A program made the position numbers and the translations under genes. From the NCBI RefSeq assembly GCF_907164915.1, contig NC_061863.1, forward strand, positions 65,773,364 through 65,837,363: DNA of 64,000 bases. Reading direction: 5' to 3'. Source of the stretch: Impatiens glandulifera. Its lineage: Eukaryota; Streptophyta; Magnoliopsida; Ericales; Balsaminaceae. Each line of letters opens with the position of its first letter. The first letter of the stretch is position 1. Below the pieces are notes generated by a model, which saw only the letters and a list, made by a program, of their open reading frames with translations, ran no database searches and was not told the origin of the DNA. This document shows positions 4,155-31,638 of the stretch, one piece after another.

Positions 4155-7100
4155 ATGGACGTCAAGAAATCGCTGGAAGATCAATTCTCAAATCTTCATC
4201 CATGTCACCCGTTGAACACAAGAATTGGTATTATTGGGGGTGGTCCAAGTGGCATCTCAGCCGCTTATGCTTTGACCAAGCTCGGTTACCAGAATGTAAC
4301 CATCCTAGAGAAATATCACACTGTTAGTGGCATGTGTGAATCAATTCTAATAGAAGGTGAAGAACATTTCCTGGATTTTAATCTTAATATACACAAATAT
4401 ATGGACTTCATTTTTTTTTCTTTTCAGGAAAAAATTATGATCTTGGAGGTCAAGTTCTTGCGGCCAACAGTGCTCCAACTATATTTCATTTGGCTAAGGA
4501 AACAGAATCAGAACTGGTTGAAATGAACTCCCACAAGCTTGCCCTCATTGATAGTTCAACTGGAAAGTATCAAGACATTCCAGTCGTCGATGACTACGCA
4601 TCTGTAATACCACTGACTATCGACCTTCAGGTTAGGTGGTTCACAAATGATTATTTTACTTAATCAGCAAAAACAGTTCTTTATCTTTCTGTTTTTTCTT
4701 TGGTAGGACAAGGCAAAGCAAACGGGTCGAATTGGGATCCACGCGGTTGCTGAGTATGCTTCCGATGTTGCTCCAGCATTTCTCGAGGGACATGGATTAA
4801 AATCAGTTCCTAAATCTGTGGCTTATGGATACACTGCTTCTGGATACGGGTTTGTGGAAGATATGCCTTATGCTTACCTTCATGAGTTCACTCGAACCTC
4901 GATGGCTGGAAAGATCCGCCGTTTTAGGGATGGGTACATGAGTCTGTGGCAGAAAATTAGTCAAGCCCTACCAATGGAAGTTCACTGCAATACTGAAGTG
5001 GTGGCAGTTAGAAGGGATTCCTCCTCTGTTCGTGTTGATGTTAAATCTATTGTAGGGGAACGAAGGACACTAGAATTCGACAAGATAATAATTTCTGGGG
5101 CCTTCCCTTTTAGGAGTGGAAAAACTTACGGATCAGATTCTCCATTCCCCGGTTCGTTATCTCTTGCATTGAGCTTTTATCTTTATTTGGTTTCCCAACA
5201 GATTCATTGAAATATGGGTTTTGATTAATGCAGAAAATGAAGCAATGGACTTGACCGAGGTTGAAAGTGGCTTATTTAGCAAAGTACAGACAATAGATTA
5301 CTACACTACTGTTTTGAAGATAGAAGGATTCGAACACTTGCCTATTGGATTTTATTACTTTGAGGAATTCATGAATCGAGAAAAGATTGGGAATCCAGTT
5401 GCAATGCAGAGATTCTATGCAGACACAAATATCTTTCTGTTCTGGTCTTATGGTAATTCTGTAGATATAACAGGATCAAAGGTTCGTGAGCTGGCGGAAA
5501 ATGCTGTGAACAGGATGGGGGGAGTTGTTCAACGACTAATTTTACAAAGACGATTCAAGTATTTCCCCCATGTTAGCAGTCAAGGTATATCACTCGATTT
5601 GATCAAACGACACGTAGTATGGCTAGTTATTAACCTCCATCTTGCATGCAGATATGAAAGAAGGATTCTTCGAAAAAGTAGAAAGTCGGCTTCAGGGTCA
5701 GCTTAACACTTACTATGTTGGCGGGCTATTGGCTTTTGAACTCACTGAAAGAAATTCTTCTTATGCCATGTCGCTAGTCCGCAATCACTTCGCCACCAAT
5801 AGTGCGTTACCAATATTCCCATATGTTAAGGTAAGTTTGTGGCTAAAAAACATTATAATTTACAGTTCCACTGAATTATTTGATTTATTTTTTTGTGGGG
5901 GCACAGAGACTACTCCATTTGCAACAAGAATGCAGGAAAAGGACACCAAGAGATTTGGGTGAATGCAACAAGGTGGAGTTTCCTGATTTAAGTAGTCTTG
6001 ATGGTTATTTGAAGCATTGGGGAATGCATGAAGTCACCAAAAATAAGATTCTCTACAATTGGCTTAACGATGAAGGGGAGGTGATCTGCCAGAGAACTTA
6101 CTCAGAACTTAATGCCAATGCTTCTTGTGTGTCTCATAATCTATTGACATGCTGTAGACCGGTTATCAAACCAGGTGATCGAGTTCTCCTGGTTCACGTT
6201 CCAGGTTTGGATTTTATTGATGCCTTTTTCGGTTGTTTGAGAGCCAGAGTGTTGCCTGTACCTGTTCTTCCACCCGATCCACTTCAAAGGGGTGGCCAAG
6301 CGCTTTTGAAAATCGAGAACATAGCAAAATCCTGCAATGCGGTTGCTATTCTTTCGACAGCTGGTTACCATACAGCTGTTCGGGCGGGGGCGTTTAAGAA
6401 TTTGGTATCAATCGTGGGAAAAAATGGGAAGAATTCCGCCCGCTGGCCTGATCTTCCATGGCTGCACACGGATTCATGGGTAAAGAACACGAAGAACAAG
6501 TCTCGAGAGGAGGAAGTGAAGAAATCGTTCGGACCCGAACCGCAAAGCAACGACCTTTGTTTCCTGCAGTTCACATCGGGATCGACTGGCGATGCTAAAG
6601 GGGTGGTGATAACTCATGGAGGACTCATCCATAACGTGAAACTAATGCGAACCCGTTACAGAAGCACGTCAAACACGGTTCTATTGAGCTGGCTTCCTCA
6701 GTATCACGATATGGGTTTGATCGGAGGACTTTTTACGGCTATGGTAAGTGGGGGAACTGCTGTATTGTTCTCCCCATTGAGCTTTATCAAGAACCCTTTG
6801 CTTTGGCTTCAAACAATGAGTAAGTACAAGGCTACTCATAGTGCAGGCCCGAACTTCGCTTTCGAACTCGTCGTTCGAAGATTGGAGATTCAGAAAGATA
6901 AGCTTGCGAATTGCGACCTTAGTTCAATGATTTTTCTAATGGTGGCAGCCGAACCAGTAAGACCGAAGACTATTGGAAGATTTCTGGAGCTCACCGTTCC
7001 TTTAGGCTTATCTGAATATGCAATGGCACCGGGTTATGGGTTGGCTGAAAATTGTGTGTTTGTTAGCTGTGCATTCGGTGAAGGACAGCCAATCTTTGTC

Positions 7101-10100
7101 GATTGGCAAGGAAGGGTATGCTGTGGGTATGTGGACTCAAACTGTTCTGACATCGACATTGATATTAAAATTGTGAATCCAGAGTCGGGTAGTGAAGAAG
7201 AAGATGGAAAAGAAGGAGAGATATGGATTAGCAGTCCAAGTTCGGGAATTGGGTATTGGAGTAGGGAGGATTTAAGCGAGAGAACGTTTCGAAACAAGCT
7301 CCCGAATGTCATGGATAAAATCTACACAAGAACAGGGGATTTGGGTCGAATAATTGATGGGAAGTTATTCATCACAGGAAGAATTAAGGATTTGATTATT
7401 GTTGCAGGAAGGAATATATACTCTGCAGACGTAGAGAAAACTGTGGAGAGCTCGTCTGAACTTCTCCGGCCTGGTTGCTGTGCGGTCGTTGGAGTTCCAG
7501 AAGAGATCTTGTCAACCAAAGGGATTTCTGTTCCTGATCATTCTGATCAAGTGGGGTTGGTTGTGATTGCTGAGGTTCGAGATGGAAAACCGCCGCCTAA
7601 AGATTTAATCGAACAGATCCAAACACGGGTTGCTGAAGAGCACGGCGTTAACATCGCTTTGGTGAAGTTAATCAAGCCGAGGACAATCAGTAAAACGACA
7701 TCCGGTAAAATCAAAAGATACGATTGTCTCAAACAGTTTGTGGATGGGACGCTAAATTTAGTGCCGGAGCCATTGTTACCGAGAAGGTCTCTGGTTCGTT
7801 CTTTCACGACAGGAACGTGCAAAGAAGGAATGACACCTCGTGCCCGGTTGGTGAAGAATGATGTGGGTCAAAGGTTAAATAACAAAGATATAATTGGGTT
7901 TTTGAAGGGATTAATTTCTGAAATTTCTGGAATCTCAATAAACAAGATTTCTACTTCTGAGAACATGGCAACTTATGGGATTGATTCTATTGGAGTTGTT
8001 AGAGCTGCGCAGAAGCTTTCAGATTTTCTCGGAGTTCCAATAGGAGCTGTCGATATCTTCACTGCAACCTGCATTGAAGAACTCGCAAAACTTTCAGAGG
8101 ATCTTCTGGCGAAGTCTCATGAACCACATAATACATTGGTGGGTGAATCTTTCGGTCAAGAAATCGAAACTGATTTTGATTCTTCTAGTTTAGTATCTGA
8201 GGTTTCTATATCTCGTCAACTTGGTATTAGCCTTTTGCAACTCCTAGCTCTTTTCTACGTCTCGACCATGCTGATCCTACCTGCCCATTTCTCGATTTCT
8301 GCTTTCATCACCACGACATCCTTCATGGATACAACTTCATGGGTGGTTTATTTACTTTCATTGGCGCTTGCTCCACTTGCTTGGATTCTAGCCATATTCT
8401 GTACCGGTGTTTGTATTAAGGTACTAGGTAACTCTTTTCTTCAGACAAACTATGCTCTGACCCCGGAAATTCCAATATGGTCTGTTGATTTCGTTAAATG
8501 GTGGGCACTCTACAAAACCCATGAAATTTCTTCTCGAGTTATGGCAGTTCATTTAAGAGGAACAGTTTTTCTGAAATATTGGTTTGAAATTCTCGGGGCA
8601 AGGATTGGATCGTCTGTTTTGCTCGATACAGTGGACATCACTGATCCATCGCTCGTTTCTATCGGAGATGGAGCTGTGATTGCAGAAGGGGTGTTAGTTC
8701 AAAGCCATGAGGTGAGAAATGGTGTTTTGAGTTTTCAACCGATTAGAATTGGACGAAACTGTTCCATTGGTCCTTATGCTGTGATCCTGAAAGGAAGTGT
8801 TCTTGGAGAAGAAACTGAAGTTCCAGCTTTGCAGAAGACTGAAGCAAGCAAACCGGTTCGCAAACCAATCAACAAGATTCGTAAGGTATGTATAGTTAGT
8901 TAGTTATCTGTTAATTCCGATTCAGATATTTTTCATTGCTCATATGCTCGATTTCACCATGTTTTTCAGAGTTCTGAGATGGAAAAGAATGCAATCCTTG
9001 ACCATTTTATGGCATTATATATGGTTGGTTTTCTCAGTTCTACTTCAGCAGCAATTGTCTACTCTCTTTACGTCTGGCTATTCCAGAAGGCACCTTCGCA
9101 ACAACATTTCGCGTTCATATGTGTTTCCGGAACCTTCCACTGGCTTCCTTATGTGCTCGTTGTCTATGCCTCAATGATGGGTGAAGTTTACTCAGATCCG
9201 AAGAACTTTGCTTTCTCACTCGCCATTGGTTATCTGGCTCATGGGTTTATACTAAGCCTCTTGACTAGCATTGCCACACGGTTTGTTATAAGAAACAAGT
9301 TGATTCGACGGAAACTCATCATAGCTTGTCATATTAGATTCGCAAAGTTACTTTCCGGAACAGAAGCCTTCTGCATTTATCTGCGTCTCCTTGGTGCGAA
9401 AATTGGAAAATATTGCTCAATTCGAGCTATCAACCCGGTTTCCAACCCAAAACTAATGAAGCTTGGCAACGGCGTCCATTTGGGTGACTTCTGTAGGATC
9501 ATCACGGGATTCCATTCTTCAAATGGATTTGTCCAAGGCAAAACTGAAGTTGGGGATAATTCCGTTATTGGAAGTCAAAGCCTGATTCTTCCCGGGTCTG
9601 TCGTTCAACAAAATGTAATCCTTGGAGCACTTTCCATTGCTCCGGCTAACTCAGTCCTTAGGAGTGGTGGAGTGTATATCGGTTCTCAAGCTCCGATCAT
9701 GATAAAGAATACGATTCATCCTCTCGATGAACGGATAGAAGAGATGGACTTCAAATATAAGAAGATTATTGGGAATTTAGCTGCAAATCTTGCTGCCACT
9801 ACTCTCAAGGTTGGAACAAGATACTTCCATAGAATTGGTGTAAGCGGGAAGGGGACTTTGAAAATCTATAACAGAATCGAAGGATTTCCGAATCACAGTA
9901 TATTCCATCCTGGTAAAAGTTATCCAGTCATCGTTCGTCATAGTAATAGCTTAAGCGCAGACGACGACGCGAGAATCGATGCCCGTGGTGCATCGATAAA
10001 GATTCTTTCAGATAAGATCAACATTCCTGATTCTTCTTCTCCATTGCTGGACTTTACCTTGAAAACGGGCAATGCTTTTTACGCGCGTACAATCTCTGAT

Positions 10101-11525
10101 TTCGCAACTTGGCTCGTTTGTGGGATCCCTGCCAGGGAGGAGCAAGTGAAACGAACTCCACACATTGGGCAGGCAGTGTGGAATTCACTTAGAAACGCAA
10201 ATTCATTCACCGAGCTTCATTATTACTCAAATATATGCAGGCTCCTCAGGTTCGTCGACGGACAGGAAATGTACGTCAAATTCAAGTTACGTCCTTTCGA
10301 CGAGAACTTCAATGAAAACGTCGGTAAGGTGAACCCCACTGGAATTCTCCCTCCAGAAACTGGCGCAATTCCGAGAGACGAAAACGACGTTCGCCCTTTA
10401 CTATTCCTAGCCGACGACTTCCGTCGCCGTGTGAATTCCTCCGACGGCGTCCGATACGTCTTCCAACTGCAATTCCGGCCAGTACCCGACGATGAAATGG
10501 TTCGGGACATAGCACTCGACTGTACGAAACCGTGGGATGAAACAGAGTTCCCATTTGTAGACGTCGGAGAGATCGTTATCGACCGGAATCTAACAAGCGA
10601 AGAATCGGATAAATTGGAGTTCAACCCTTTCCTCAGATTTCCCGAAGTGGATGTTATAAAAGCTAGTTCGTCCACCCAAAGCGCTTCAATCGATCATGGA
10701 CGTTCATTGATCTACGAAATCTGCCAGCATTTGAGAAACGAGGAGCCGCTTCCCGAAGCCTGGAGAATCCTCCTAGAACAATCCGACGTAAAGGTCGACC
10801 TTTCCGGCTGTCCAATGGCAGCAACTTTCAAGAAAACCGATTCAAAGAAACTCAATCTAAAAAGAACATGGCTTCAATCCATATGGGTCACCTTTGTTCA
10901 ACCCATTCTACAAATCGCCTTCCCTTATTACCTAATGGGACTAACCGTTTTCACTCCTTTAACCACCGTCTTCTACCTGAACAAAACCATGAACTATCCA
11001 TTACAACTGCTGCTTCCTCCATTCTGGGTTGTCTCTGGCATCCTAAGTGCATTAATCTGCGCCGGCGCGAAATGGGTTTTTGTGGGTAAGAATGAGGAAA
11101 GCAAACCGGCGAAGATTTGGAGCGCAAGGGTTTTCATGGATACGATATGGCAGGCGTTGAGGACATTAGTGGGGGAGTATTTCATGGAAACAACGAGTGG
11201 GTCTAGCTTGTTTGTGATATGGATGAAGTTGATGGGATCGGGGGTTGAGTTGGGGGCTTATGTGGACTCGATGGGAGCCACATTGAATCCGGAGATGGTG
11301 GAGATTGATAGAGATGGATGTGTTGGGAAAGAAAGTCTTCTTTTTGGGCATATCTATGAAGGTGATGAAGATGGTGAAGTTAGGTTTGGAAGGATTAGTA
11401 TTGGAGAAGGAGGATTTGTGGGGAGTAGAGCTGTTGTTATGCCTGGAGTTAGAGTTGAGACTGGTGGAAAGTTAAGTGCTCTCTCCCTTGCTATGAAGCA
11501 AGAAACTATTTCTGCTTCAAAGTAG
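4155..11525 (+). CDS. NRPS-like multidomain enzyme, copy 1 (FAD oxidase / FAAL / carrier / Pls-like membrane region with catalase-like domain), 7 exons, 2304 aa
   Basis: Exons read as 4155-4356, 4428-4630, 4707-5151, 5234-5584, 5652-5830, 5907-8885 and 8970-11525; all introns are GT-AG and the joined frame stays open. Residues about 22-460 form an FAD amine-oxidase-like fold: GGGPSG at 28-33 and Glu52 as the likely ribose-binding acid. Residues about 485-1085 resemble fatty-acyl-AMP ligases: TSGSTGDAKG starts at 683, YGLAEN at 837, TGDLG at 936, catalytic-type Lys1061 in TSGK. A carrier domain follows, with phosphopantetheine Ser1154 in DSIG. The rest is membrane-associated, with several hydrophobic helices and three hexapeptide beta-helix blocks (about 1360-1430, 1594-1694, 2210-2300), as in bacterial Pls-type termini. 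A catalase-like domain (about 1735-2060) has distal His1740 and proximal Arg2031/Tyr2035. Inferred role: activate an acyl acid, tether it and oxidise it at a membrane. Substrate and product are unknown. No break was seen. Confidence 0.9.
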
Positions 11526-11565
11526 AACAAAAGAATATTGGGGAAATGGAAAATGGGTTAATTTT

Positions 11566-11571
11566 AATAAA
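11566..11571 (+). terminator. Candidate poly(A) signal of copy 1
   Basis: A canonical AATAAA lies about 40 bases after the stop codon of the first NRPS-like gene, in the 257-bp gap it shares with the convergent MCTP gene. Assigned by position and motif only. Confidence 0.4.
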
Positions 11572-11782
11572 CGATGGTTCTATTACTATGTATAGAATAA
11601 GGCAGTTAATAAAGTAAGTTATTTTGCTAATGCCATTTCCAATAATATTGACTAAGGTTATCATTTGAGCTATCTTATTGTCATATATAAAGTTGATCAA
11701 TACAAAGATAGACTGATTGGACGATGATAATTGCATGCAGTGACAGTTTCTTGGAGCAAACAAATGCGACAGGTTAGTGTGT

Positions 11783-14080
11783 TTACAACATATAATCATC
11801 TTTTGCAGGCAGCCTCTTGAAATAGTTAATTGGGAAAGAATGGAGTTTATGGCGAAGCTTCGGATGTCTCAGATAGTAAAACCCTCCTATCAAGACCAAA
11901 GCCCGAAAGGGTACAACGTAGAAGATAATGGCGGTTACTAAGCAAAAGATTGCGAACAAAGTCGAGGCTCTAGGATCCCTCCAGCTCAGCATGGAATTGA
12001 ATCTTTCTAATTGGTTTGCCAACTCACCAGTGATTGTCTGTACTCTCCCTGCAATGTCCCTCAGAGCATCATACCTCTTCCTCACGACCTCCGACGATTT
12101 TGTTGTGGGGAAACTGTCGAATTCTTCATCAAATCCGTCTTCGGTAAACTGTATATGGGCCAGTGAGAGTTGCACGTCCATGTGGGCAGGGTCCTTGGGC
12201 CTGAAACGGAATCTCCAAACTGCGGTTATGAAGAGGTAGAAGAATAGTGTCGGGAGGATCAATTCGGGGTTAAAAACCAACATGAGGAATAAAATGTGGA
12301 ATAAAATGGTAGTGATTGGATTCTTCCATTGTGAGATTTTGTTTAGCCATATCCCAATTGAGTTTAAAGCCGAAGTGGCGTCTTGTAGCCTTTGATAGTT
12401 AGCCTTTGCTCTCCTCAAGCTCCATAACTTCGTGTTCGTGTCCAGCATATAATCGACAACCTCTTTCTTTAGAGGTGGCTCGGCTCGACCCAACTTCGTC
12501 GCGACTATCAATATGGCTTGTCTTCTCAACATTTCACGTACATTCTTATGAAAATCACTAAGAAGATAGTTCATCTTGGGTAACAAAGGTTGCATGTATT
12601 TTTGCATCATGTTCACAAATGATGTGCATGTAAATCTAACCGCCAATTCGATCTCCCCCATCCTCTTTACCCCGGATGGTGATAGAACTATCAAAGGGTA
12701 CGAGTGCGTGTAAACTCGATCCGTTAGGAGAGTCGACAAACGAATTCTGACCTTTCCGATTCTCGAGTCATTCCCATCTCCATTCATATGCCTGTTGTCG
12801 AAGACCCCGATTGTGAGCACCGTACAAGGATCGTAAACCTCCCAAGTGTATTGCTCGTTCCATATGGGCGAAAGGTTTTCAATGATGGTCCTAGTCCTAA
12901 CCCATTTCGGACCATACTTAGCCACACAAAAGGCATCGGTGCAACCTTTACCATCTCTAGTCTTCATTTCGGGTAATCCAACTGCCTTAACGATACCAAG
13001 CTCTAATAGGCCAATGGGGGACTTACACAACGCCCTAGCCGATGGTCTAGTATCGCTTATGTAGTAGGTGGACTCGTCCATGACATGGTACCCACCTTCC
13101 AAAGACATCCTTAATTGAATCCTACATGCGAACTTGTTCACTTTTTTGTCTATCTCGTCCGCTAGCCTAGGTCTTTCGAGCTCGTACCACTTGGGTGTTA
13201 TGTTCTTATCGTCGTTCCTTTTGGCTATTGTTTTAACGGGTATTGCGCACTTGGCAAGAAATTCATCCTTGTTTGGCGACACTCTATCCTCCACAATGAA
13301 AACCAACGTCTCGTCAAACGGCTCAGCAATCACAAACATAAATTCCTCGTTCCAAACAGAGTTGACACCCGTGGACATCCTTGTTTTCAACATTTGGTTT
13401 CCTAGGTTAACACTAACACAAGCTATGGGAACCCTATTTTTATCCGAACTTTCCAAATCTTGACATTCCATAACATTCACCCTCAGGTACCATAGCTTAG
13501 GCATTACATACACTTTCGCGCGGATCCTCACAAGAGCTTCCTCGTTTGGAACCGTGATTGCACCTGAATGCCAAGCGTCGGGAAAGGATTCGTCGGCTTG
13601 AGTTCCTTTCCATACGGCAAGCATGATCAATCCTTTCTTAATCTTATAACCTTTCTTGTCTTCAAGATTGTACCATTGAGCGGCCAACGGGCTGTCTGGT
13701 GGAATGCAGGTTGGGACCTCCGCAAGGTCAAACCGAACTCTTCCAATAGAGACGTCGGCTATCGAGTTCTTGTCTTTCACGACAACCTCAACTTGGGAAG
13801 CTTGAAATTTCTCAAAAGCGAATACTTGATTCCATTCGGGATTTGAATTGTTATTGTAATGAAGGGTGCTGCCGGTGAAGTTTCCAAGCCTTACTTCGAC
13901 ATAAGGGTTGCAACCGCCGGGCACATCCTTACCTTCTAGCTCCCTTGCCTTCACGACACGAACGAACAAAAAGTACATTTTATCGACAAGATCATAAGTG
14001 AAGCCGATCTTACTGGCCTGTGTTTTTGGCGAAATCTTTCTCGGGACATAAGCTAGAGGTTGCATTTTTCTTTTACCCAA
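11783..14080 (-). CDS. Multiple C2 domain and transmembrane region protein (MCTP/FTIP-like), single exon, 765 aa
   Basis: MCTPs are endoplasmic-reticulum-anchored, calcium/phospholipid-binding tethers, often at plasmodesmata; FTIP1 and QUIRKY are named members. Three C2 domains can be placed at about residues 38-165, 198-330 and 363-500, each followed by typical linkers (for example PEWNQVFAF and PIWNEQYTWEVYD). The C-terminal phosphoribosyltransferase-C-like region (about 605-765) carries two hydrophobic segments and ends with the family-type KRLPAKDDYML. Length and the lack of introns match the family. The ATG at 14080 leaves a short basic N-terminus before the TYDLV motif that usually precedes the first C2. 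The gene is intact and converges on copy 1 with a 257-bp gap. Which MCTP subclass it belongs to was not resolved. Confidence 0.93.
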   Translation of the reverse strand: MGKRKMQPLAYVPRKISPKTQASKIGFTYDLVDKMYFLFVRVVKARELEGKDVPGGCNPYVEVRLGNFTGSTLHYNNNSNPEWNQVFAFEKFQASQVEVVVKDKNSIADVSIGRVRFDLAEVPTCIPPDSPLAAQWYNLEDKKGYKIKKGLIMLAVWKGTQADESFPDAWHSGAITVPNEEALVRIRAKVYVMPKLWYLRVNVMECQDLESSDKNRVPIACVSVNLGNQMLKTRMSTGVNSVWNEEFMFVIAEPFDETLVFIVEDRVSPNKDEFLAKCAIPVKTIAKRNDDKNITPKWYELERPRLADEIDKKVNKFACRIQLRMSLEGGYHVMDESTYYISDTRPSARALCKSPIGLLELGIVKAVGLPEMKTRDGKGCTDAFCVAKYGPKWVRTRTIIENLSPIWNEQYTWEVYDPCTVLTIGVFDNRHMNGDGNDSRIGKVRIRLSTLLTDRVYTHSYPLIVLSPSGVKRMGEIELAVRFTCTSFVNMMQKYMQPLLPKMNYLLSDFHKNVREMLRRQAILIVATKLGRAEPPLKKEVVDYMLDTNTKLWSLRRAKANYQRLQDATSALNSIGIWLNKISQWKNPITTILFHILFLMLVFNPELILPTLFFYLFITAVWRFRFRPKDPAHMDVQLSLAHIQFTEDGFDEEFDSFPTTKSSEVVRKRYDALRDIAGRVQTITGELANQLERFNSMLSWRDPRASTLFAIFCLVTAIIFYVVPFRALVLIGGFYYLRHPKLRHKLHSFPINYFKRLPAKDDYML

Positions 14081-14159
14081 TACAACAAACTAATCGATTT
14101 GAATTGAAAAAGGTAGAAAGTATTTGAAGTTTGAACACTTGAGACAAGGGGTGGGGTGA

Positions 14160-14170
14160 CTATAAATATA
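14160..14170 (-). promoter_or_regulatory. Candidate TATA box for the MCTP gene
   Basis: The minus strand reads TATATTTATAG about 80-90 bases upstream of the MCTP ATG, within a short leader-like stretch. Position fits a core promoter. AT-rich surroundings make chance matches likely. Confidence 0.4.
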
Positions 14171-15339
14171 TATTATTGGTTGAGAAGTGATATTAGAACA
14201 CGAAATCTATACTAATCTTGCAAAATGATGTTTTGGTGGGCTAATTAATGAATTTTTATTAATACCAAAAAAAAATACTATATACTGACCTCTTGTCTTT
14301 TTATTATTTTTTATTTTATAAAAACATATATTTTTCTCTATACAATCAATTATAAACTAAGTCCCATTTGCATCAAAGCTCTTATAGCTTTTATGATGAA
14401 TATTAAATTTTACATTATCTCATATTTTAATTCTAACTAAAAATGCTTAAATTAAAGTGTATAACAATAACAGTTAAAAAGAAAACATGTGAGATTGTTA
14501 GGTTGTTATTAAAAATTCAAGATGATTCCTTATTTTAATTTGATATATCTATTATCTTTAAATAAAATTGTCGGCTTCTTTTGGTATGCATTTTCAAATT
14601 TTAATTTAATTAATACATTTATTATATTAATTAAAAATCACAGTAATCTATCGTGTTTACAAAAATAAAACATTTACTTAGGATCCAAATATATATATAT
14701 ATATATATATATTTTCAGATTTAATTTTGAGTGACATCTTTTGATAAATAAAAATTTTCAAATAGGATAATGTGGTGTACATTTAAATAATAACGTCACT
14801 TTCACACTTAATACAAGCTAAGTATTTTTATAAAATTAGAGGTTGAATATAAAAAGTATTGTATTATTAATTTTATTTTTTAAATTAACATTATTCATTA
14901 TTGACAATATTACACTTTTGTCCCTTTAACTATCTTAATGTGTTAAAAGTTCTAGTAATAATATTTTTGAAAGTTTTAACTTTCTTACTTGTTAGTGCAA
15001 TAACTAATAAGATTATAACATGTGAATTGTGTTATAATCTATGATTTTAGTTTTAATTTAATTTAGTAAATTATTTAATTTTATTAGTAATATGGATCAT
15101 CCATCTATGTGGTTTCTTGTTCCTTGAAAATGTTGACTAAAATGGTAGTGTGAGATATGAAAGCTTGATTTTGATACATAATTTGTATGGTTGTCAATTA
15201 ATAAAAACAAATGAATGTCCATTCAATAACCTGAAATAATACTATGCTTATTTTTATTTTTTAAAATGTAGTACTTAACTCTTCTTTCTTTATTTTTTCA
15301 AAATTAAGCCATCATATTATATTTTATATATATAAAGTG
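14171..15339. other. AT-rich intergenic DNA, no gene seen
   Basis: AT-rich sequence with a (AT)n tract at 14689-14712 and no coding frame. Nothing further is supportable. Confidence 0.6.
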
Positions 15340-15367
15340 TTCGGATTGCTGAGTCGATAGTTATGGT

Positions 15368-15427
<60 letters not shown>

Positions 15428-16053
15428 AAAATGGATATTTGGGTCAAATTATGGGTTAAACAGTCCATAAATTTAAAACGGTTATTTTTAAAAAAAAATA
15501 CTATAGGTATGTTTCGAACTTGTAACCTAATAAAAACAAATACATTGAGGAAAATATATGATGAGATATGTGAGAAAATGAGTTGTTTTATCGCAAGTGA
15601 ATAAATATGAAATAAGAGTGTTCTATTTTTTATTTTTATTTTAATATATTATTCGTGATTTATTAAAAAAATTAAACATTAAATACATATTATTATAATT
15701 TTTTTTTATTAATTTTTTTTATATTTTTATCCATTTACAAATCTTTCAAATATATATATACATATGCTTAATTTTCAAAGTGTCTGGATTGTCGGGTCTC
15801 ACTGTGATTAATTTGGATATATATATTAAAGAAAATGGATATTTGGGTCAGATTGTGAGTTAACCCGCCTATAAACTTAAAACGGTTAAAACTAAAACTA
15901 AAAATGTTATACGTATGTTTTGAACTTAAAACATAACAAAAACAAGTGTAACGTTTTAACCAACTAGGTTAATAAGATTTTTTATTTTAAATTCAATACC
16001 AAATTTGATGAACGCGGGACATTTTAACAATATAAGTTCAATTTTTTAACTGA

Positions 16054-16114
<61 letters not shown>

Positions 16115-19698: not shown

Positions 19699-19699
19699 A

Positions 19700-19732
<33 letters not shown>

Positions 19733-19746
19733 AATATATATATAAA
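19621..19746. repeat. Compound microsatellite (ATT)n then (TA)n
   Basis: About fifteen ATT units (19621-19667) run into an imperfect TA/TAAA tract. It creates a spurious poly-Asn/poly-Ile-Tyr frame on the minus strand. Confidence 0.95.
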
Positions 19747-20865
19747 GGATCGTGTATAAATAATAAATAAAATAGAGCTTATAAAAAATTTGAAGAAGGA
19801 CATGTTTGTTTAGGACATATAAAAATATCTATAACCAATTATAATACTTAAATTTAATTTAAAATTCTAATATATATATATATATAACATTTTTAATCAA
19901 TACTTTTAAAATAATAATTTTTTATTAAATATTAATATATTTTAAAACTTATTAATTCAATAATACCCCAAACAAAACATTAATTTAAGAATTTGTTTGA
20001 TGTTTTATTTGAGAACTTTTAATTTTTGTTTGATAAAAAAAATTAATTAATTAATTAGTATAATTAAGGACTTGTACGAATTTTTTAAAATTTAAATTTT
20101 ATAAAATAAATAAAAATAATTTAATTAATAAAATAAATGATTCAATGGTTAGAATATAGTGATTTTGATATAGATATTTTCTTAAAAAAAACATATATTA
20201 GAATATTTAAATAATCCTTATTCAAACAATCAGTTAATATAACAATTGAAATTTTGACTAATTGAGCCAACAACATGACAAAATCACAACTCTAAACTCA
20301 TTATAAAAAACAAACAAAATAAGAAAATAGTTCCAAAATAATAATTTTATATGTGCCTTTAAACACCTTTCTTTTTCAATCTTGGTTTGGACCAAAGTAA
20401 GTCATCAATTTTTGGTCAAACATTTTGATTAAAAATGTTGTATTAGATAAAATAATATTTTAGATCCTAACTTCAAAATTTAATTTTATATCTCTCCTCT
20501 CTTTCTTCAAATTATCTCACAATATATTAACCTCATTTCTCTTTTCCTTCTAAAATTTACAAAACACAGATTTTTTTTTTATGACAAGTATAACATTTGT
20601 TTTTAATTCTAGTAAAGATTTTTTTTCATAATTATTAAAATACAAAAAAAAAAAAAAAGTTTAGATGTCTATGGTGTAAACTTGAATCTCCAAAATTGTA
20701 GATCCACGTTATTCATGATGAACAACTCAATTCATATGTGCAAGTTATTAATTACTATGAACTCAAATTTATAAAAAAAATATATTTTTCTTTTTTCTTT
20801 TTTTTCTTGTCAATTTTTTAGTGAAACGTCCATCTTTGACTAATTGTTTAATATATATAATAAAA

Positions 20866-21045
20866 TAAATAAATTTGGTCTGGACAGCCTAATATATATT
20901 ATGTCTTATTTTATATAAATTTATTATAATAAATAGATTATTGGAATAATTTTAAGTAAATAAATTTGGTCTGAACAGCCTAATATATATTGTCTTATTA
21001 TATATAAATTTATTATAATAAATAGATTATTGGAATAATATTGTT
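20866..21045. repeat. Tandem duplication, about 91-bp unit, two copies
   Basis: AAATTTGGTCTG(G/A)ACAGCC starts at 20871 and again at 20962. Each is followed by the same AT-rich body ending ATAGATTATTGGAATAAT. Copies differ by a few substitutions and small indels, so the duplication is fairly recent. No gene is involved. Confidence 0.85.
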
Positions 21046-21471
21046 AATTAAGTTTTGAGAAGAGAAGTATTTTTTTGGTAGACATATTTAAAGATATTAA
21101 TATATAATAATAAATTATTATTTTTTAAAATAAAAAATATTTTAGTATATTGGTTAAAAATATTAAATAGAGAGGGAATGAAATAATATTTCATTATGGT
21201 TGAATTTTTATATATAAAAAAAAAACAATAACATTAAGGATAATTAATAGCCCCAAATAAGTCACAGATAAATACAATTTGATTATAGGTTGTCAAGGTT
21301 GATTTTATATTTGAAACAAATAAAAAACATTTTATTGTGGAAAATAAAAATAAAATTATATTAATTAGTTAAATATGAATGAAAATCACTAAAATCATAA
21401 TATAATAGTTTAGAAGGGAGATCTGGAAGATTTTTGATATAATATTGTATTCAATTTGTATATAACTTTTG

Positions 21472-21474
<3 letters not shown>

Positions 21475-21563
<89 letters not shown>
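21475..21563. repeat. Long (AT)n microsatellite
   Basis: An almost uninterrupted AT dinucleotide run of about 89 bases, the longest in the window. The flanking DNA (21046-22579) is AT-rich and without genes. Confidence 0.97.
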
Positions 21564-21567
<4 letters not shown>

Positions 21568-22579
21568 TATATAAACATATGATAAAATTACGAATTAAAA
21601 ATGAAGCCTATTCTAAATAAAAGAATTGAGAAAATTCTTTTCAAGGGCCAATAACAAATCCTAATACATTATAAACAAGGTAGATGTTAATTAAATATAA
21701 TTTATATATTTATATAACATGTGGAGACCGAGTCTTCAATCTCGACTAATTCTCCTACCTTGGTCGATCAGTAGAAGTCATTCGTTCTCAATGACTTAAG
21801 ACTTTTTCAAAACTATAAATAAAAAACAATTACTTTTTATTTTGATTAATTCTCATTCCCTCGTTTATTCTAAAAAAAACTAAACTATTAATAAAACAAC
21901 CTCACAAAATAAACAAAACAAAAGACTAGCAATTTTCTATCTTTCTTTCTATTATTTAAATGAAACTCTTTTTTTTATATGTACATGAGTCAGCTTGAAG
22001 TGAAACACAATATAAAAACACTGTATATAGGTTCTATTAGAATAAATCTGGAAATCAATTTGCTAAGAAAAATCAAACATATTTAGTTGGACTTTTACTC
22101 GCAAAAGTCTACAGACAATTATTGGACAATAATCAACCAAACTATTCTCAATAATGACTAGTTCCCATGCCACATATTTAAAAAATAATAATAATTAAAT
22201 ACAATTTTATTTTATTAATTTTATTAAATATTTTAAAATCTAATCATAATTTCACTCACTCAATTTTTTTTAATCAAAATACAAAAATATAATCTAATTT
22301 TCAAAAAATAATCATTTTATCAATATATATTAATATCTTTTAAATCTTTTGCATAAAAAACCCACATTTTCAAAATTATTACCCATCAAACATTATTTAT
22401 ATAAATCAAAGTTTATTTAAATAAGTTTAAAAAGTAAGAAAGACTAGGATAAATCTTGAATAAACAATATTCTTTATAATATTTTAAAACGTGAAATGTT
22501 AAGGAATCTCTTAGTCATTTTATTTTTTTATTTAAAAAAAACTCAAAATATCCTATACCAAACAAGTCCTAATATATAT

Positions 22580-22589
22580 CTATATATAG
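22580..22589 (+). promoter_or_regulatory. Candidate TATA box of copy 2
   Basis: CTATATATAG lies about 120 bases upstream of the ATG at 22711 and is followed by a mixed-composition leader. Spacing suits a plant core promoter; the AT-rich context lowers confidence. Confidence 0.4.
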
Positions 22590-22710
22590 TTCCTCATCCA
22601 AGTTGTATTCATGAATCATTCCTAACATCATATTTTATGCATTGATCTATTTCCTTGTGTTTAGTGTGTTGATTATTGGATAGATAAGTAACAAATAATT
22701 AAATCTTAAG

Positions 22711-25700
22711 ATGGAGGTTGAAAATTCCATTGATGATCAGTTCTCAAAGCTACACCCAACCTTGTCTTTGAACACTCGGATCGCAATTGTTGGAGCCGGT
22801 CCAAGCGGTTTATCAGCTGCTTATGCCCTTATAAGGCTCGGCTATGTCCATGTGACACTTCTAGAGAAGAACCCCGATGTAGGGGGTATGTGCGAGTCTC
22901 TCAATTTTCAAGGTACGGCATGCATAACTCATAACTCGATCATTCGTCGCATAAAATATTTTGATTAATTAATTGAGTTTTCATTTTTTACATTTTATTT
23001 ATAGGACGAGTATATGACTTGGGAGGACAAGTTCTAGCAGCGAATAGTGGGCGTTGCGTATTTCATTTGGCAAAAGAAGTCGGGGCAAAAACGGAAGAGA
23101 TGGATTCACATAAGTTTGCCGTCATTGATAGCTCCACAGGAAAGTTTGAGGATTTGAAGCTGGTTCATGATTACGTCTCCATCATTTCATTGACTTTGAA
23201 GCTTCAAGTAAGTTTAATCCATTCTAAACACTTGAGATTTCTTTATATATATATATATGATAAATATCATCTCTAAGATTTATAAATGATTTTTCCATTT
23301 TTCTATCCCCTTTATATATACATATTTTAATTGTTTCAAAAATAATATCGATCATTTTTTAACTAATCCTTATATACAAAACTTTTACTATAGTCATGGC
23401 CGGCCAAACCAGTGTAGGAGAATGGAAATACCCAAATATATAAACAAATATTAAAATAATTATAAACTTTAACAAAAAAAAAGAAGAAATATATACATAC
23501 AAATTAATTATATAATTATAATAACTATTATATAAAATATTAGTTTATAAACTAAATTTTAAAATAAAGTAAATAATAAATTAACAATTAAATTAAGACA
23601 TGAAATAAGATTATTTAACTAAATCATATATTTAAAAAATATACAGACGAGTTGTTTTTTTTTTTTTTTTGTTCTAGATGTCCGATAATTGTTTTTGTTT
23701 TAGAGAGATATAAAATGAAGAATATGTAACTATTGAGGATAAATATAAGATTAAAGTAAAATGTATAAAAAATAAGTATAATGACAGTAAAAATGTAACT
23801 TTAAAAATAATTTTTACTTTTCATAAGTTGAGATAAATTTTAAAAAAATAAGTATAAAAATATAGAGAGGTTTATGAATAAATATGGGATAATAGAAAGA
23901 GAGGGGAATGTCTAAAATAGGATATATTAATTGATTAATAATATATAATAGATTAATATACTTATATTTAAAATTTGAGACCAGTAGAGTATAGGTTGTG
24001 TCTCTATTTAACAAAATAGTTTGCACGCATCCGATCGAGCCTAACTAAGTTCAATGTCACAATATATGTTAATAAAATATTTAAAATTATATTATTTTTA
24101 TTAATAATAATACAAAATAATTATATTTATGAAATAAAACTTAAAATATAACTAGTAAAATAAAAAATATATATCTTAATTTTTTATTTTTATTATACTT
24201 TTTATTAATATTATTATATAATATATTAAATATGTATATTTATTTTCAACATTATATATATATATATATATAATATATAACCAAATATAAATATAAATAA
24301 TTTTAATATTATAATTCATTATTAAAAAAATATACTTATACATATAATAGTTAATTATTACTAGTTTTTCAAAATTTAATTAAATCATAAATAATATTAT
24401 TGGTTTTATATTTATGTTTCTACTCATAGTAACATTTAAAATAGATAAATATAATTCATAGAAAAATTTATATTATAATTAATTTATATATATTAAAATT
24501 TAATCAATTAGAATAGGTAAATGACAAGTTCAATAAATTTAAGAAAATATTAATATTATAAAAAATTCAAATACATATAAAAAATTATAAAAGATATAAC
24601 GCTTATACAATTTCTTATCATTTAATTAAAATAATAATAATAATAATGTATACAACTTCTAATCCTTAGAATTTATAACATATTATAAACTCTATAATTT
24701 GTATTATTTATTACATGATTTACATGATTACATCCATATTTGTTGATGAATAGGATGAAACAAAAAGCTCAGGCAGAGTTGGAATACATGCTCTGAGTGA
24801 CCTAGCTTCCGATCAAACTCCTCAATTCCTCCACGCTCATGGCTTCTCATCGGTTCCCAAATCCGTCTCCTATGGATATACTGCTTCTGGCTATGGATAT
24901 GTACACGATATGCCCTATGCTTATGTCCATGAGTTCACTAGAACTTCCATGGCCGGAAAGGTCCGACGCTTCGTCGGAGGTTACGCCAGCCTTTGGAATA
25001 AACTCAGCCAATCCTTACCGATCAACGTCCATTGCAGTACGGAAGTTCTACGTGTCAAACGAGGAGGAACAACTAACATCACCATCGACTGTAGAGATTG
25101 CCAAACAGGAGAAATCCAATCCATGGAATTTGATCAACTCATCATTTCAGGTGCTTTCCCATTTAACAATCAGCAAACGTACAGATCACCTGCTTCAACC
25201 CCCACAGGTTTGTTAACATTTTACAAGACAAAATCTCTTTCCATATTCATGTGTGTCACGACTCTAAACAAATTCACATTATGCAGAAAATGGTTCTCAG
25301 CTAATGGACATGACCGAACTCGAGATCGAATTGTTCAGTAAAGTACAAACAATTGATTATTACACAACCGTGCTGAAGATAAACGGACTCGAGCACATTC
25401 CAATGGGGTTTTACTACTTTGGAGAGTTTATGGATGATCCTGCCACCATAGGAAATCCTGTTGCCATGCAGAGATTCTATGCAGACACAGACGTTTTTTT
25501 ATTCTGGTCTTATGGTAACTCCGCCGACATTAGCGGATCAAAAGTCGCCGAACTTGCAAAGAACGCGGCTAAGCGGATGGGGGGTGAAGTCGAGGAAGTG
25601 ATCTTACAACGTCGGTTTAAGTACTTTCCCCATGTCAGCAGTCAAGGTACATAACCATTGATTTGATCAATAGCCATCACTTTTTTAGTGCACACGTTTA

Positions 25701-28700
25701 AGTGTTTGCTCATATGATCATCTTGATATTCAAAACTGCAGATATGAAGGAAGGATTCTATGACAAACTAGAACAGCAATTACAGGGACAAAACAACACT
25801 TACTATGTAGGTGGACTCATGGCGTTTGAACTAACAGAAAGAAATTCATCATATTCCATGGCTCTCGTGTGCAAGCACTTTGCAAATAACAACCCTTTTC
25901 CAAGTTTTCCTTATATCAAGGTAAGAAACACAAGAACAAGAACAAGAACTTTTAGTTAATCAAGACAATATTAGTTTTACTAATTCTCAGAACTACTACA
26001 TCATTATGCAGAGATTGTTCCCAATGATTAGGAATAACCATGATTGGTTATCTAAGCAATTGGATGAACTACCAGGAATTGAGTTCCCAAATCTTTCCTC
26101 TGTGGATGGGTATCTGAAACACTGGGGAACATTCGATCTTACTAAAAGAAATACTTTATATTCTTGGATTAATGATAAAGGAGAAATAGTATGCAAGAGA
26201 ACTTACATGGAGCTTCATGCAAATGCATCTTACATTGCTTCCAAGATCTTAATGAGCCAAAAGCCTGTTATCAAATCTGGAGATCGGGTTCTTTTGATAT
26301 ATATGCCGGGACTTGACTTCATTGATGCATTTTTTGGGTGCCTTAGAGCTAGAGTCATACCAGTACCGGCTATTCCTCCTGATCCAATGCAAAGAGGGGG
26401 ACAAGCTCTTCTCCATATTGAGAATATTGCCAAAGAATGCAATGCAGTCGCCATTCTGTCGACTTTTAGCTATCATACATCAGTTCGAGCAGCTTCATTT
26501 AAGAACACCATATTAATGGCAGGGAGGGGTAAGTGCTCCCCTCATTGGCTTACTTTGCCGTGGTTACATACTGACTCTTGGATCAAGAATTCCAAAAGTG
26601 ACTCAAACAGATGCGTTGTGGTTATGAATGAACTGCTTGAGCCATTGCCAAACGATCTGTGCTTTCTCCAGTTCACATCAGGTTCAACTGGTGACGCAAA
26701 AGGTGTTGTGATAACACATGGTGGTCTTATTCATAACGTGAAGTTGATGAGGAAGAGCTATAGAAGCACATCAAGGACCGTGCTAGTGAGCTGGTTACCT
26801 CAGTATCATGACATGGGTTTAATTGGAGGACTCTTTACAGCTCTGGTCAGTGGTGGATCTTCAATACTCTTTTCTCCAATGACATTCATCAAGAATCCAT
26901 TACTTTGGCTACATGCCATGAGCAAATATAGGGCGACACATAGTGCAGGCCCCAATTTTGCTTTTGAACTCATCGTTCGAAGACTTGAGTCAGCAGCCAA
27001 AGATAAACAGCTCAGTTTTGATCTCTCCTCCATGGCTTTCCTTATGGTTGCGGCAGAACCAATAAGGGTCAAAACCTTGAAAAGGTTCATTGAGTTGACT
27101 CAGCCTTTAGGTCTTTGTCAAGAAGTAATAGCTCCCGGTTATGGCTTGGCTGAGAACTGCGTATATGTGAGTAGTGCATTTGGAGAAGGAAAGCCAATAT
27201 ATCAAGACTGGCAAAGAAGGATCTGTTGTGGATATGTAAATTCAAATGACCCAGATGTGGATATTCGTATTGTTGATTCGGAAACAGGAAATGAACACAA
27301 AGAGGCTGGAAAAGAAGGTGAAATTTGGATTTGTAGTCCAAGTGCAGGAATTGGGTATTGGGGCAGGGAAGATATCAGTAAGAAAATTTTCAGAAATGAG
27401 CTTCAAGAGCAACATGGGAGAAAGTACACTAGAACTGGCGATCTAGGATGGGTTATCGATGGTAAACTATTTGTAACTGGTAGAATAAAGGATCTCGTGA
27501 TTGTTGGGGGCAGAAATATTTACCCATCAGACGTAGAGAAAACCGTTGAGAATTCGTCTGAATTTCTCCGTCCTGGCTGTTGTGCAGTAATTGGAGTTCC
27601 AGAGGAAATTCTCTTAGCAAAAGGCTTATCCCATCCTGAGAATTCCGATACTGTTGGGTTGGTTGTTATTGCAGAAGTTAGAGAAGAAAAGCCCGTCCCA
27701 AGAGAAGTTATCGAACGCATTCATGCTCATGTTGCAGAAGAACATGGCGTCACAATTGCTTCCATAGTGTTGGTTAAACCAAGAACCATTTCTAAAACTA
27801 CCTCAGGGAAAATCAAGAGGTTTGAGTGTCTCAATAATTTTACTAAAGGAACATTGAGTGTGATACAACAACCGAGTCTTCAAGAATTGCCTGTTCACAT
27901 TACTAGACAAGGATCCAAAACTCCCACAACTGGCAATATTCACAAGAAAGAAATCATTGATTTCTTGAAGGGACTTCTTTTTGAGCAGACGAGTATTCCG
28001 GTTTCCAACATTTCTATAACCGAGAGTCTAGTATCGTACGGGATCGATTCTATCGGTGTGGTTCGAGCAGCTCAGAAGCTCTCTGTGTTTCTTGGAGTAC
28101 CTGTCGGTGCTATTGACATCTTTACGGCAACCTGCATTGAGGATCTAGCCTGTTTTGCAGAAGCACTTCTAAAGAAGTCTAGACCTCATTTTGAAAGCCA
28201 ACTGTCATCAATTCCCGAGGTCAAGGGAAGCATAACCTCGGAAGCCACATTTTCCCGAAAGTTAGTGATATGGTTTCTTCAACTTCTGGCATTGACATAC
28301 ATTTCCTTGATATTGATGTTTCCTGCATATCTATCAATTTCCACCTTTACATCCATGATATCATATTCCAGCATATTCACTAGTAGAATTACATGGCTTG
28401 ATTACTTCATTCCTGTGGCGTTTGCTCCACTTGCGTGGATAATGTGCATAATCTACACATCCATATCTATTTCTTTATTCGGGAGTTCATTCCTACAACC
28501 AAATTACACCCAAGATCCAGAAGTTACCATTTGGTCCGTCAAATTTGTTAAGTGGTGGGCGCTTTACAAGGTTCAAGATATTAGCTCAAAAGTTCTAGCT
28601 GTTCATTTAAGAGGAACGGTTTTCCTGAAATATTGGTTTGAGATGCTTGGAGCTAACATTGGATCCTCAGTTTTGCTAGACACTGTTGACATCACAGACC

Positions 28701-31638
28701 CATCTCTGGTTTCCATTGGGGATGGAGCTGTAATTGCTGAAGGAGCTCTAATTCAAGGCCACCAGGTTAAAAATGGAGTATTGAGTTTCCACCCAATCAG
28801 AATTGGCCAAAATTCATCAGTGGGCCCTTATGCTGTTATTCGACAAGGAAGCATTGTAGGAGACAGAGCTGAGGTACTCCCTCTACAGACTATGTCTAGT
28901 CCTGTTGTGCCCAATATAGTTGAAAATGTGAGTTATTCCTATCAATCACTCTCTTTAAATACTTATGCAAATAGATGTTAACATCTCGGAAATTAAAAGT
29001 AGATTATAACATGCCTTACATGTTGTGGTTGCAGGGAGGAATGATAAAAACTGAAGTAGACATGATTGATGAGAGTCATGTAATTGCTTACCATTTCATC
29101 GGGATCTATATAATCCCTTTCCTCAGCACGTTATCTGCAGCAATCACATACTTCCTGTATTTATGGCTATTTAAGGAACCATTTTCTCTGGAATACTTTG
29201 GCCCTGTATGTTTGATTGGAGCCTTTCACTGGCTTCCATTTGGTATCGTGTCATACGGAACTTTGGTGAAGAATCCCCCATCCAGTGCAATTAACTTTGC
29301 CGTGGGCCTATCTGTTTCTTACTTTGTTCATGGCCTCCTCCTTAGTTTCCTCACCAGCTTTCTAAGTTTTATTTTAGCCAAATCACAAAGAAAGAAGAGG
29401 AATAGTGTTGCTAATTGGCTTAGAAACAGAATTATCATTGCATGTCACCAAAAATTTGGCAAGTTCCTCTCCGGTACAGAAGCTTTTTGCTTCTACCTTC
29501 GTCTTTTTGGGGCGAAAATTGGCCAACACTGTTCTATTAGAGCCATCAACCCGGTTTCTAATCCAGAACTGATCTCAATCGGAGACGGTGTCCACCTAGG
29601 TGATTTTAGTCGAATTATTCCAGGATTCTATTCTTCTAATGGATTTGTGTATGGAAAAATTGACGTGCAGACTAACTCAGTTGTTGGAAGTCAAGGAACA
29701 ATCATGCCCGGTTCTGTTATTCAGAACGATGTCATACTAGGCGCACTTTCGATTGCTCCTATAAACTCTCGGCTTCTAGAAGGTGGCGTTTTCGTTGGTT
29801 CCAAAACTCCGGTCATGGTGAAGAACATCATGCACACTTTGGACGAAAGAATAGAGGAGATGGACATGAAGTATAAGAAGGTTCTTGGAAATCTAGCTGC
29901 AAATTTAGCCTCGACAACTCTCAAGGTCAAGTCGAGGTATTTCCATAGAATCGGTGCTGCTGGAAAGGGTGTTCTAAAGATTTTCCCAAACATCCCAGGT
30001 TTACCAGATCATAAAATCTTTAGCCCAGGAAAGAACTATCCCGTTGTTATCAGACACAGTAACTGCCTCAGTTCAGACGACGATGCAAGACTAGATCCAC
30101 GCGGTGCAGCTATCAGGATTCTTTCAACAGACGAAATGGGTCATCAAAATCCAATTCTCGATTTGACTCTAAAAACTGGAAAGGCGTTTCACGCTCGTAC
30201 AATAGGGGATTTCGCGACGTGGCTCGTATGCGGAGCGTCTGCACGAGAAGAGCATGTAAAACACGCTCCACATGTCCGGGAAGCAATGTGGGATTCCCTC
30301 CGACGAGCCGATTCATACGCCGATCTGCATTATTACTCCAACATTTGCAGACTGTTTAGGTTCGAGACTGAACGGGAAATGTACGTCAAATTCAAGATAA
30401 GACCTTTCGATGAAACTATCGGCGAGGACTCCGGTAAGGTAGAACCGAGAGGAGTGCTACCTCCAGAAACAGGCGCAATTCCTAGAGACAAGAACGACAC
30501 TCGTCCGCTTCTTTTTCTGGACGAGGATTTCCGTCGTCGTGTCGAGTCTCCTGAAAAAGTGCGGTTCATCCTCCAACTGCAAATCCGGGATGTCCCTGAG
30601 GAGGAAAAGGATCGCGAAATTGCACTCGACTGCACTAAACCATGGGATGAATCTGAATTTCCGTATATTGAAGTTGGAGAGATCACTCTCGATCAAACAC
30701 TAACGAAAGAAGAATCGGATCAGTTGGAATTCAATCCTTTTCTCCGTTGTCACGAACTCGATATCATCAGGGCTAATTCCTGCAACCAGAGTGCTTCTAT
30801 GGATCACGGAAGGTCGCTGGTGTACGCGATCTGCCAACACTTACGCAACAGGAAGCCCATTCCAGAGTCATGGAAGATCTTCTTGGATCAATCAGACGTT
30901 AAACTCGACCTTTCTGGGTGTCCTATGATGGCTGCTGCTGCTGCGACATTTGTGAAAAACAAGATAACGCTAGCAAGAACCGGGTGGGAAACGTTATGGT
31001 CAATTTCCATTCAGCCTTTAATGCAAACAATAGTCCCTTATCTTGTTATGGGTCTAGTAATGTTCTACCCTTTAAAATGGGTAATTTACATGAAAAAGGA
31101 AGAGGAGAATGTCCCTTTACAATTGGTGATCCTGGCTATGTTTTGGGTAAGCTCGGGGGTTTTAGCTTCAATAGGATGCGTATTAGCGAAATGGGTTTTG
31201 GTGGGTAGAAACAGAGATGGACAAACGCTGATGATCTGGAGCAAGAGAATCCAAATGGATACAGTATGGCAGGCAACGAGGACGCTAGTAGGGGAATATT
31301 TCATGGAAATGACGAGTGGGTCTTTCTTGTTTGGGATATGGATGAAGACGATGGGTTCAAAGATAGGGTGGGAAGAAGGGGCATTCGTGGATAGCATGGG
31401 AGCTTTGTTGAACCCAGAAATGGTGGAAGTTGGTGCAAAAGGGTCGGTTGAAAGAGAAGCTTTGTTGTTTGGTCATATATATGAAGGTGAAAGTGGGAAA
31501 GTAAAGTATGGAAGAATTAGGGTTGAGAAAGGTGGGTTTGTTGGGACGAGAGCCGTTTGTATGCCTGGAGTCACTATTCAATCAGGTGCTTCTCTTTCCC
31601 CTCTTTCCCTGGCTATGAAGGGAGAGATCGTTACTTAA
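22711..31638 (+). CDS. NRPS-like multidomain enzyme, copy 2 (same architecture as copy 1), 7 exons, 2305 aa
   Basis: Exons read as 22711-22912, 23005-23207, 24754-25207, 25287-25646, 25742-25920, 26012-28927 and 29035-31638. Intron positions and phases equal those of copy 1; exons 1, 2 and 5 are identical in length (202, 203 and 179 bases). Intron 2 has grown to about 1.55 kb of AT-rich DNA against 76 bases in copy 1. The FAD fold starts with a canonical GAGPSG (28-33). The adenylation domain has TSGSTGDAKG from 688, the carrier serine is Ser1146, and the catalase-like domain has His1742 and Arg2031/Tyr2035. Three hexapeptide beta-helix blocks and paired hydrophobic helices are all kept. Sequence similarity to copy 1 runs the whole length, so this is a whole-gene tandem duplicate. 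Catalytic motifs are intact, so both copies probably make enzyme, perhaps with different acyl preference or expression. Function is inferred from domains only. Confidence 0.9.

Follow-up and report, generated by a model that had tools for sequence, protein, structure and literature searches.

The window analysed here is a stretch of 64,000 nucleotides from Impatiens glandulifera (contig NC_061863.1, positions 65,773,364 to 65,837,363 of the forward strand). It contains two genes, designated A and B, whose giant products combine a flavin domain, a fatty acyl-AMP ligase (FAAL), a carrier and a heme domain with a membrane terminus. Both genes were rebuilt from the genomic sequence, independently of a previous sequence-only reading of the same DNA that had proposed two seven-exon genes of 2304 and 2305 codons; the two reconstructions agree (Table 1). 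All 12 introns of A and B have GT-AG borders. Intron position and phase correspond between the two genes in six cases out of six, if an alignment slack of 1 column is allowed at intron 3 and of 6 columns at intron 6.

Table 1. Features of genes A and B (window coordinates) and of the bacterial fusion protein L007 (residues)
Feature	Position	Strand	Evidence or remark
Gene A	4155-11525	+	seven exons, 2304 aa + stop; open frame across GT-AG-joined exons
Gene A exons	4155-4356, 4428-4630, 4707-5151, 5234-5584, 5652-5830, 5907-8885, 8970-11525	+	
A flavoprotein domain	4215..5791	+	residues 21-447, exons 1-5, GGGPSG at residue 28; 2b9w-like (phmmer vs PDB)
A fatty acyl-AMP ligase domain	5994..7766	+	residues about 490-1080; Pfam, NCBIfam, motifs
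A carrier domain	7890..8102	+	phosphopantetheine Ser1154 in GIDSIGV; Pfam
A membrane helix pair + left-handed beta-helix block 1	8199..8816	+	Hexapep above cut-off; TIGR02353 partial; hydropathy
A membrane helices + beta-helix block 2	9003..9725	+	Hexapep 31.4 bits; repeat alignment
A allene-oxide-synthase/catalase-like heme domain	9792..10739	+	R1737, H1740, R1776, Y2035, R2042 kept; F1739, K1818 changed
A membrane helix + beta-helix block 3	10863..11510	+	TIGR02353 partial, 114.5 bits; Hexapep_2 below cut-off
Gene B	22711-31638	+	seven exons, 2305 aa + stop
Gene B exons	22711-22912, 23005-23207, 24754-25207, 25287-25646, 25742-25920, 26012-28927, 29035-31638	+	
B flavoprotein domain	22771..25881	+	residues 21-453, exons 1-5
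B fatty acyl-AMP ligase domain	26099..27868	+	best PDB matches headed by FAAL-type chains; NCBIfam
B carrier domain	27956..28168	+	Ser1146; Pfam; hydropathy also flagged 1157-1175
B membrane helix pair + beta-helix block 1	28241..28888	+	Pfam; TIGR02353 partial; hydropathy
B membrane helices + beta-helix block 2	29059..29841	+	hydropathy, repeat alignment; Hexapep below cut-off
B allene-oxide-synthase/catalase-like heme domain	29902..30855	+	R1739, H1742, R1778, Y2035, R2042 kept; F1741, K1818 changed
B membrane helix pair + beta-helix block 3	30973..31629	+	TIGR02353 partial, hydropathy, repeat alignment
L007 FAAL	residues 14-570		
L007 allene-oxide-synthase-like domain	residues 616-901		2e-29
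L007 isomerase-like domain	residues 948-1359		1e-33
L007 carrier	residues 1385-1450		
L007 PlsC-type acyltransferase PF01553	residues 1540-1671		Pfam 3e-6

The A and B proteins are 62% identical (1451 of 2338 alignment columns). The nonsynonymous divergence between the two genes (dN) is 0.27 and the synonymous divergence (dS) is saturated (about 3.6). When domains are considered individually, dN ranges from 0.22 to 0.34, with the FAAL and the heme domain sharing the lowest value (0.225) of the seven domains; dS is too high to measure in the flavin domain and the FAAL, whereas its minimum, 1.36, falls in the last block and gives a ratio of about 0.25 there. The low dN relative to the saturated dS, together with the intact frames in both copies, rules out chance open reading frames (ORFs) or pseudogenes and identifies A and B as constrained full-length genes. 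The "tandem pair" of the sequence-only reading holds insofar as the two genes are direct repeats; they lie, however, about 11 kilobases (kb) apart, with an unrelated gene between them. This intervening gene (window 11783-14089, minus strand), which we take to be of the MCTP type, has three C2 stretches followed by PRT_C. No third copy of A/B was found in the window or in the 20 stretches that extend the search by 100 kb to each side, and Rfam gave no match in the window.

Pfam was run on the seven exon pieces, not on the joined proteins. The analysis identified AMP-binding (3e-55 and 7e-54), PP-binding, Hexapep, NAD_binding_8/Amino_oxidase and Catalase domains; the third hexapeptide block of both proteins, the second block of B and the Amino_oxidase match of the third exon of B taken alone stayed under the Pfam cut-offs. 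The domain search that the sequence-only reading had called for therefore recovered both the ligase and the carrier. Each protein resolves into seven blocks (flavin, FAAL, carrier, beta-helix 1, beta-helix 2, heme, beta-helix 3), two more than the five-part architecture originally described. Membrane helices were located by a Kyte-Doolittle hydropathy scan and these calls are rough, as segments inside domains regarded as soluble were flagged too (in A, 553-571 and 730-748, with their equivalents in B; in B, also 1157-1175).

Plant HemY-FAAL-catalase proteins have been described as conserved and of unknown function (eLife 2021;10:e70067, PMC8460268). In these proteins, flavoprotein, FAAL and catalase follow one another in the same order as in A and B, which places A and B in this class and makes it doubtful that the architecture is "rare", as had been thought. 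Among the literature matches listed, PMC8460268 was the only one found to describe the architecture, and none of those matches was a functional study of such proteins. The available portion of its main text does not contain the terms isomerase, allene oxide, oxylipin, transmembrane, poly-lysine or hexapep-. Hence, the architecture itself is not new; what goes beyond the statements of that text is the assignment of the oxidative domains and the bacterial fusion described below.

The ligase was compared with solved structures using exon 6 of B as a query. The 20 PDB matches with E ≤ 1e-20 are headed by 7r7e-g, 3kxw and FadD32/FadD23/FadD28-type chains, the best scores being those of 7r7e (2e-83, labelled "Polyketide synthase"), 3kxw (7e-76) and FadD32 (5e-64). 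Several later matches, 5icr among them, are labelled "Acyl-CoA synthase", and CoA synthetases occupy the last two places (4e-21). Chains 3pbk, 5icr (MsFAAL32) and 3e53 are named as FAALs in PMC8460268, where a FAAL-specific insertion and a blocked CoA pocket serve as the structural criteria for this class. In NCBIfam, the nonribosomal peptide synthetase (NRPS)/polyketide synthase model PRK05691 comes first and FAAL models next (about 300 bits), none of them attaining its curated cut-off; the amino-acid adenylation model scores 123 and 120 bits. The A ligase carries the motifs LQFTSGSTGDAKGV (680), YGLAE (837), RTGDLG (935) and TTSGK (Lys1061). As judged from its sequence, the ligase is of the FAAL type, nearer to FAALs than to CoA ligases or amino-acid adenylation domains. 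The activation of a carboxylic (fatty) acid postulated earlier is supported. A plain NRPS label was rejected, since the ligase is not of the amino-acid type and Pfam detected no condensation domain in exons 6 and 7; for the same reasons, "NRPS-like" is a loose description. The carrier predicted from a DSIG serine is likewise supported: PP-binding matches (1.6e-9 and 2.2e-7) adjoin the FAAL, and the phosphopantetheine serine is kept in both copies.

The amino-terminal flavoprotein had been recognized from its GxGxxG motif, and a domain with an FAD motif is indeed present; what had escaped notice is that its nearest relative is 2b9w and not a characterised amine oxidase. Residues 21-447 of A align to essentially the whole of 2b9w (6-423 of 424, E 3e-26, phmmer against the PDB), FAD motif included, and the two share the FPHVSS and QGxxNTxY motifs. 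The second match, UDP-galactopyranose mutase (2e-6), is aligned at the FAD motif only, and chains labelled as spermine, L-amino-acid or putrescine oxidase score 4e-5 or worse. We take 2b9w to be the polyunsaturated fatty acid isomerase of P. acnes. This type of isomerase acts by hydride transfer to FAD. 2b9w is a free-standing bacterial chain of 424 residues, whereas in the plant proteins the homologous domain is fused ahead of the FAAL.

The heme domain is catalase-like, as previously described, but among solved structures it is closest to coral allene oxide synthase (cAOS; 1u5u), with E-values of 1.5e-27 for B and 6.6e-26 for A in phmmer searches of the PDB. The best true catalase matches B at 7e-4, and none matches A up to 1e-3; a plain catalase label was rejected on these grounds. 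Homology covers residues 55-363 of the 374 of the coral domain (1u5u, 3dy5). In the numbering of PMC5617202, residues R64, H67, R102, Y353 and R360 of cAOS, which include the heme arginines, the distal histidine and the proximal tyrosine, are kept in A, in B and in the bacterial protein L007 (see below). The plant domain is fused to a carrier system, whereas the coral enzyme is fused to a lipoxygenase.

The three blocks that follow the carrier are homologous to one another by repeat alignment. Hydropathy suggests three helix pairs in B and likewise in A, where only one helix of the last pair rises above the threshold. This plan resembles the terminus of PosA, for which structure prediction gives six helices in three pairs and three left-handed beta-helices, the latter packed like sugar-nucleotide acyltransferases (PMC10522769). 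A structure model of one plant beta-helix block was poor (pLDDT 54, pTM 0.37). Pls/PosA proteins (TIGR02353) and the plant proteins have in common adenylation, a carrier and three membrane-helix/beta-helix repeats; they differ in that the plant ligase is of the FAAL type instead of an amino-acid adenylation domain, a flavin domain stands in front, and a heme domain lies between blocks 2 and 3. On sequence grounds, the terminus appears to be a diverged Pls/PosA-type block into which the heme domain was inserted. The three-repeat plan of the poly-lysine-synthetase-type terminus proposed previously thus stands, whereas the match to the family itself is only partial (scores below).

Bacterial contigs were scanned with two peptide patterns from the isomerase C-terminus, which yielded 165 stretches and 22 loci; as only these two patterns were used, the counts are lower bounds. 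When the 22 isomerase-like loci were searched with protein B (tblastn), FAAL matches were found at two and a heme-domain match at one, both FAAL matches lying in the same ORF as the isomerase. The locus with all of these parts, L007 (contig CAMFHP010000074.1 of an uncultured Myxococcaceae metagenome-assembled genome, MAG), has a single ORF of 1816 aa at 1944-7394. Its FAAL, allene oxide synthase (AOS)-like and isomerase-like parts are 32-35% identical to B; for the FAAL, the identity is 35%, compared to 30-34% for the FAALs among the plasmid matches listed. The L007 protein and the plant proteins share four parts in one chain, yet the order differs and the bacterial chain ends in a PlsC-type acyltransferase. 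No hexapeptide match was found in L007, and its hydropathy peaks are confined to the FAAL part. The other FAAL-positive locus, L026 (Myxococcales MAG), has an ORF of 1101 residues (6953-10258) composed of FAAL, carrier and isomerase, with no heme domain. In plasmid searches, the parts were found only separately, as Sinorhizobium catalase-like matches, FAAL-type ligases, Pls/PosA termini and two isomerase-like records. With respect to the surroundings of the two fusions, a fatty acid desaturase gene (8617-9687, minus strand) follows the L007 ORF at a distance of about 1.2 kb, a single ORF separating the two, and a ketosynthase-III/chalcone-synthase-like ORF (5794-6936) directly precedes the L026 fusion.

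We consider the product of each plant gene to be, probably, a fatty-acyl modifying synthase, membrane-anchored and carrier-tethered, that would transfer what it makes at the membrane. This interpretation is based on the domains, their nearest solved relatives, the kept catalytic residues, the selective constraint seen in every part, and the four-part L007 ORF with its acyltransferase-like end. The four parts recur in a single chain under two arrangements, each with its own kind of terminal domain, which suggests that they work on a common substrate bound to the carrier. What this substrate is, how the steps follow one another, and what the product, acceptor and cellular location are, we infer. 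The FAAL would adenylate a fatty acid, with a polyunsaturated C18 acid as the most likely candidate, and would load it onto the carrier serine without CoA. The flavin domain would then shift or conjugate the double bonds of the tethered chain, and the heme domain would rearrange or oxygenate the resulting diene or hydroperoxide, with no dismutation of H2O2; the peroxide for this step might be a hydroperoxide loaded ready-made, or else the heme domain might be a peroxygenase using H2O2. Finally, the beta-helix terminus, possibly a pseudo-trimer by analogy with PosA, would pass the finished acyl group to an acceptor, either an alcohol or an amine.

Several observations weigh against this model. 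The scores of the ligase lie far below the NCBIfam FAAL cut-offs (299.6 vs 775 bits for PRK05850, 289.8 vs 975 for FadD32), as do the partial matches of the terminus to TIGR02353 (81.3-114.5 bits vs a cut-off of 423.1, exons 6 and 7 having been scored separately). Identities to the solved relatives are low, the heme domain being about 23% identical to cAOS, and in A and B the residues corresponding to Thr66 and Asn137 are changed to Phe and Lys. L007 has the same Phe before the distal histidine and a Thr at the Asn137 position. AlphaFold modelled the heme domain with low confidence (pLDDT 52, pTM 0.58); the top Foldseek matches of this model, 3dy5 and 1u5u, are consistent with the assignment but weak (TM 0.44, root-mean-square deviation 13) and, given these values, add little. 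No lipoxygenase domain that could supply a hydroperoxide, as used by cAOS, was found. On the bacterial side, the full fusion is known from one MAG only, with another domain order. The isomerase mostly stands alone, 20 of the 22 genes having no FAAL match in the flank examined (some flanks being short). The AOS-like domain of L007 had no match in plasmids and went undetected when the genomes behind the remaining 21 loci were searched, where an empty answer without a known positive carries no weight; the same genome search did recover the entire L007 protein from the MAG that encodes it.

One alternative is that the flavin domain, as an acyl or amine oxidase, produces H2O2 and that the heme domain is a catalase whose protective role is to remove this H2O2 where it arises. 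The Pfam labels Amino_oxidase and Catalase and the kept heme ligands are in line with this, as is the PDB label of 2b9w, "putative aminooxidase", which also weighs against the model above in that the isomerase identity is an assumption of ours. We think this unlikely: cAOS, the nearest relative of the heme domain, is unable to scavenge H2O2, and the two distal residues that it shares with catalase, Thr66 and Asn137 (PMC5617202), are precisely those replaced in A and B. Moreover, the flavin domain is much nearer to 2b9w (3e-26) than to the spermine, L-amino-acid and putrescine oxidases. The changed distal residues, as well as the existence of the heme-less L026 fusion, could also indicate that the heme domain is a non-catalytic spacer and that the terminus transfers an acyl group merely isomerised or not modified at all. 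This seems slightly less likely still, as five heme, proximal and distal residues are kept in A, B and L007 and the domain shares with the FAAL the lowest dN. The three membrane/beta-helix repeats, with their 81-114 bits to TIGR02353 and the PosA plan, raise the question of a Pls/PosA-type synthetase making an amino-acid polymer or an amide, the terminus being the condensing engine. Although amide formation from a fatty acyl donor is possible, FAAL models outscore the amino-acid adenylation model (about 300 vs 123 and 120 bits) and a pathway to a homopolymer offers no evident role for the flavin and heme domains, making this the least probable of the three.

Going beyond the carrier-tethered synthase as such, we tentatively propose, as a possibility to which we give less than even chances, that A and B represent a plant lipid-oxidation line outside the lipoxygenase/CYP74 system and contained in one polypeptide. 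A polyunsaturated acid would be loaded onto the carrier, conjugated by the flavin domain, converted by a coral-type, catalase-fold oxylipin synthase and finally linked, as an ester or amide, to an acceptor in the membrane through the action of a Pls/PosA-like pseudo-trimer; bacteria would use the same four parts in another order and with another acyltransferase. If true, this would be a second way for plants to reach oxidised or conjugated lipids, one built on the catalase fold. Giant plant proteins that have been called conserved but unexplained become testable, as their domains point to a class of substrates (polyunsaturated fatty acids), to the chemistry on the carrier and to a step of transfer. 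The bacterial fusion, which is without membrane blocks, offers a simpler assay system.

Viral relatives were sought as well; of 39 pattern matches, none was confirmed. Among the other bacterial loci, L014 (Myxococcaceae MAG) has tandem isomerase-like genes (8993-10330 and 11826-13100). On plasmid pNGR234a of Sinorhizobium fredii (L001), a catalase-like match at 4955-7005 spans the end of an annotated catalase coding sequence, in another frame, and the next, "hypothetical" coding sequence; it adjoins a di-heme peroxidase and a patatin-like phospholipase and is possibly a second, mis-annotated catalase-like gene.

The remainder of the window contains several other genes. A C2H2 zinc-finger protein (61478-63601, minus strand) has a body made up of about 15 near-identical 96-base units (93% match) that encode a 32-residue repeat. 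A second C2H2 zinc-finger ORF (35529-36950, plus strand) shows a similar but different repeat expansion, with 4.5 copies of an in-frame 111-base unit. Also present are a PPR protein (38330-39973, minus strand), a B_lectin/S-locus receptor kinase ORF (56214-57767, plus strand) and a PTR2/POT-family transporter (42040-43964, minus strand), of which one further ORF upstream may be the first exon.

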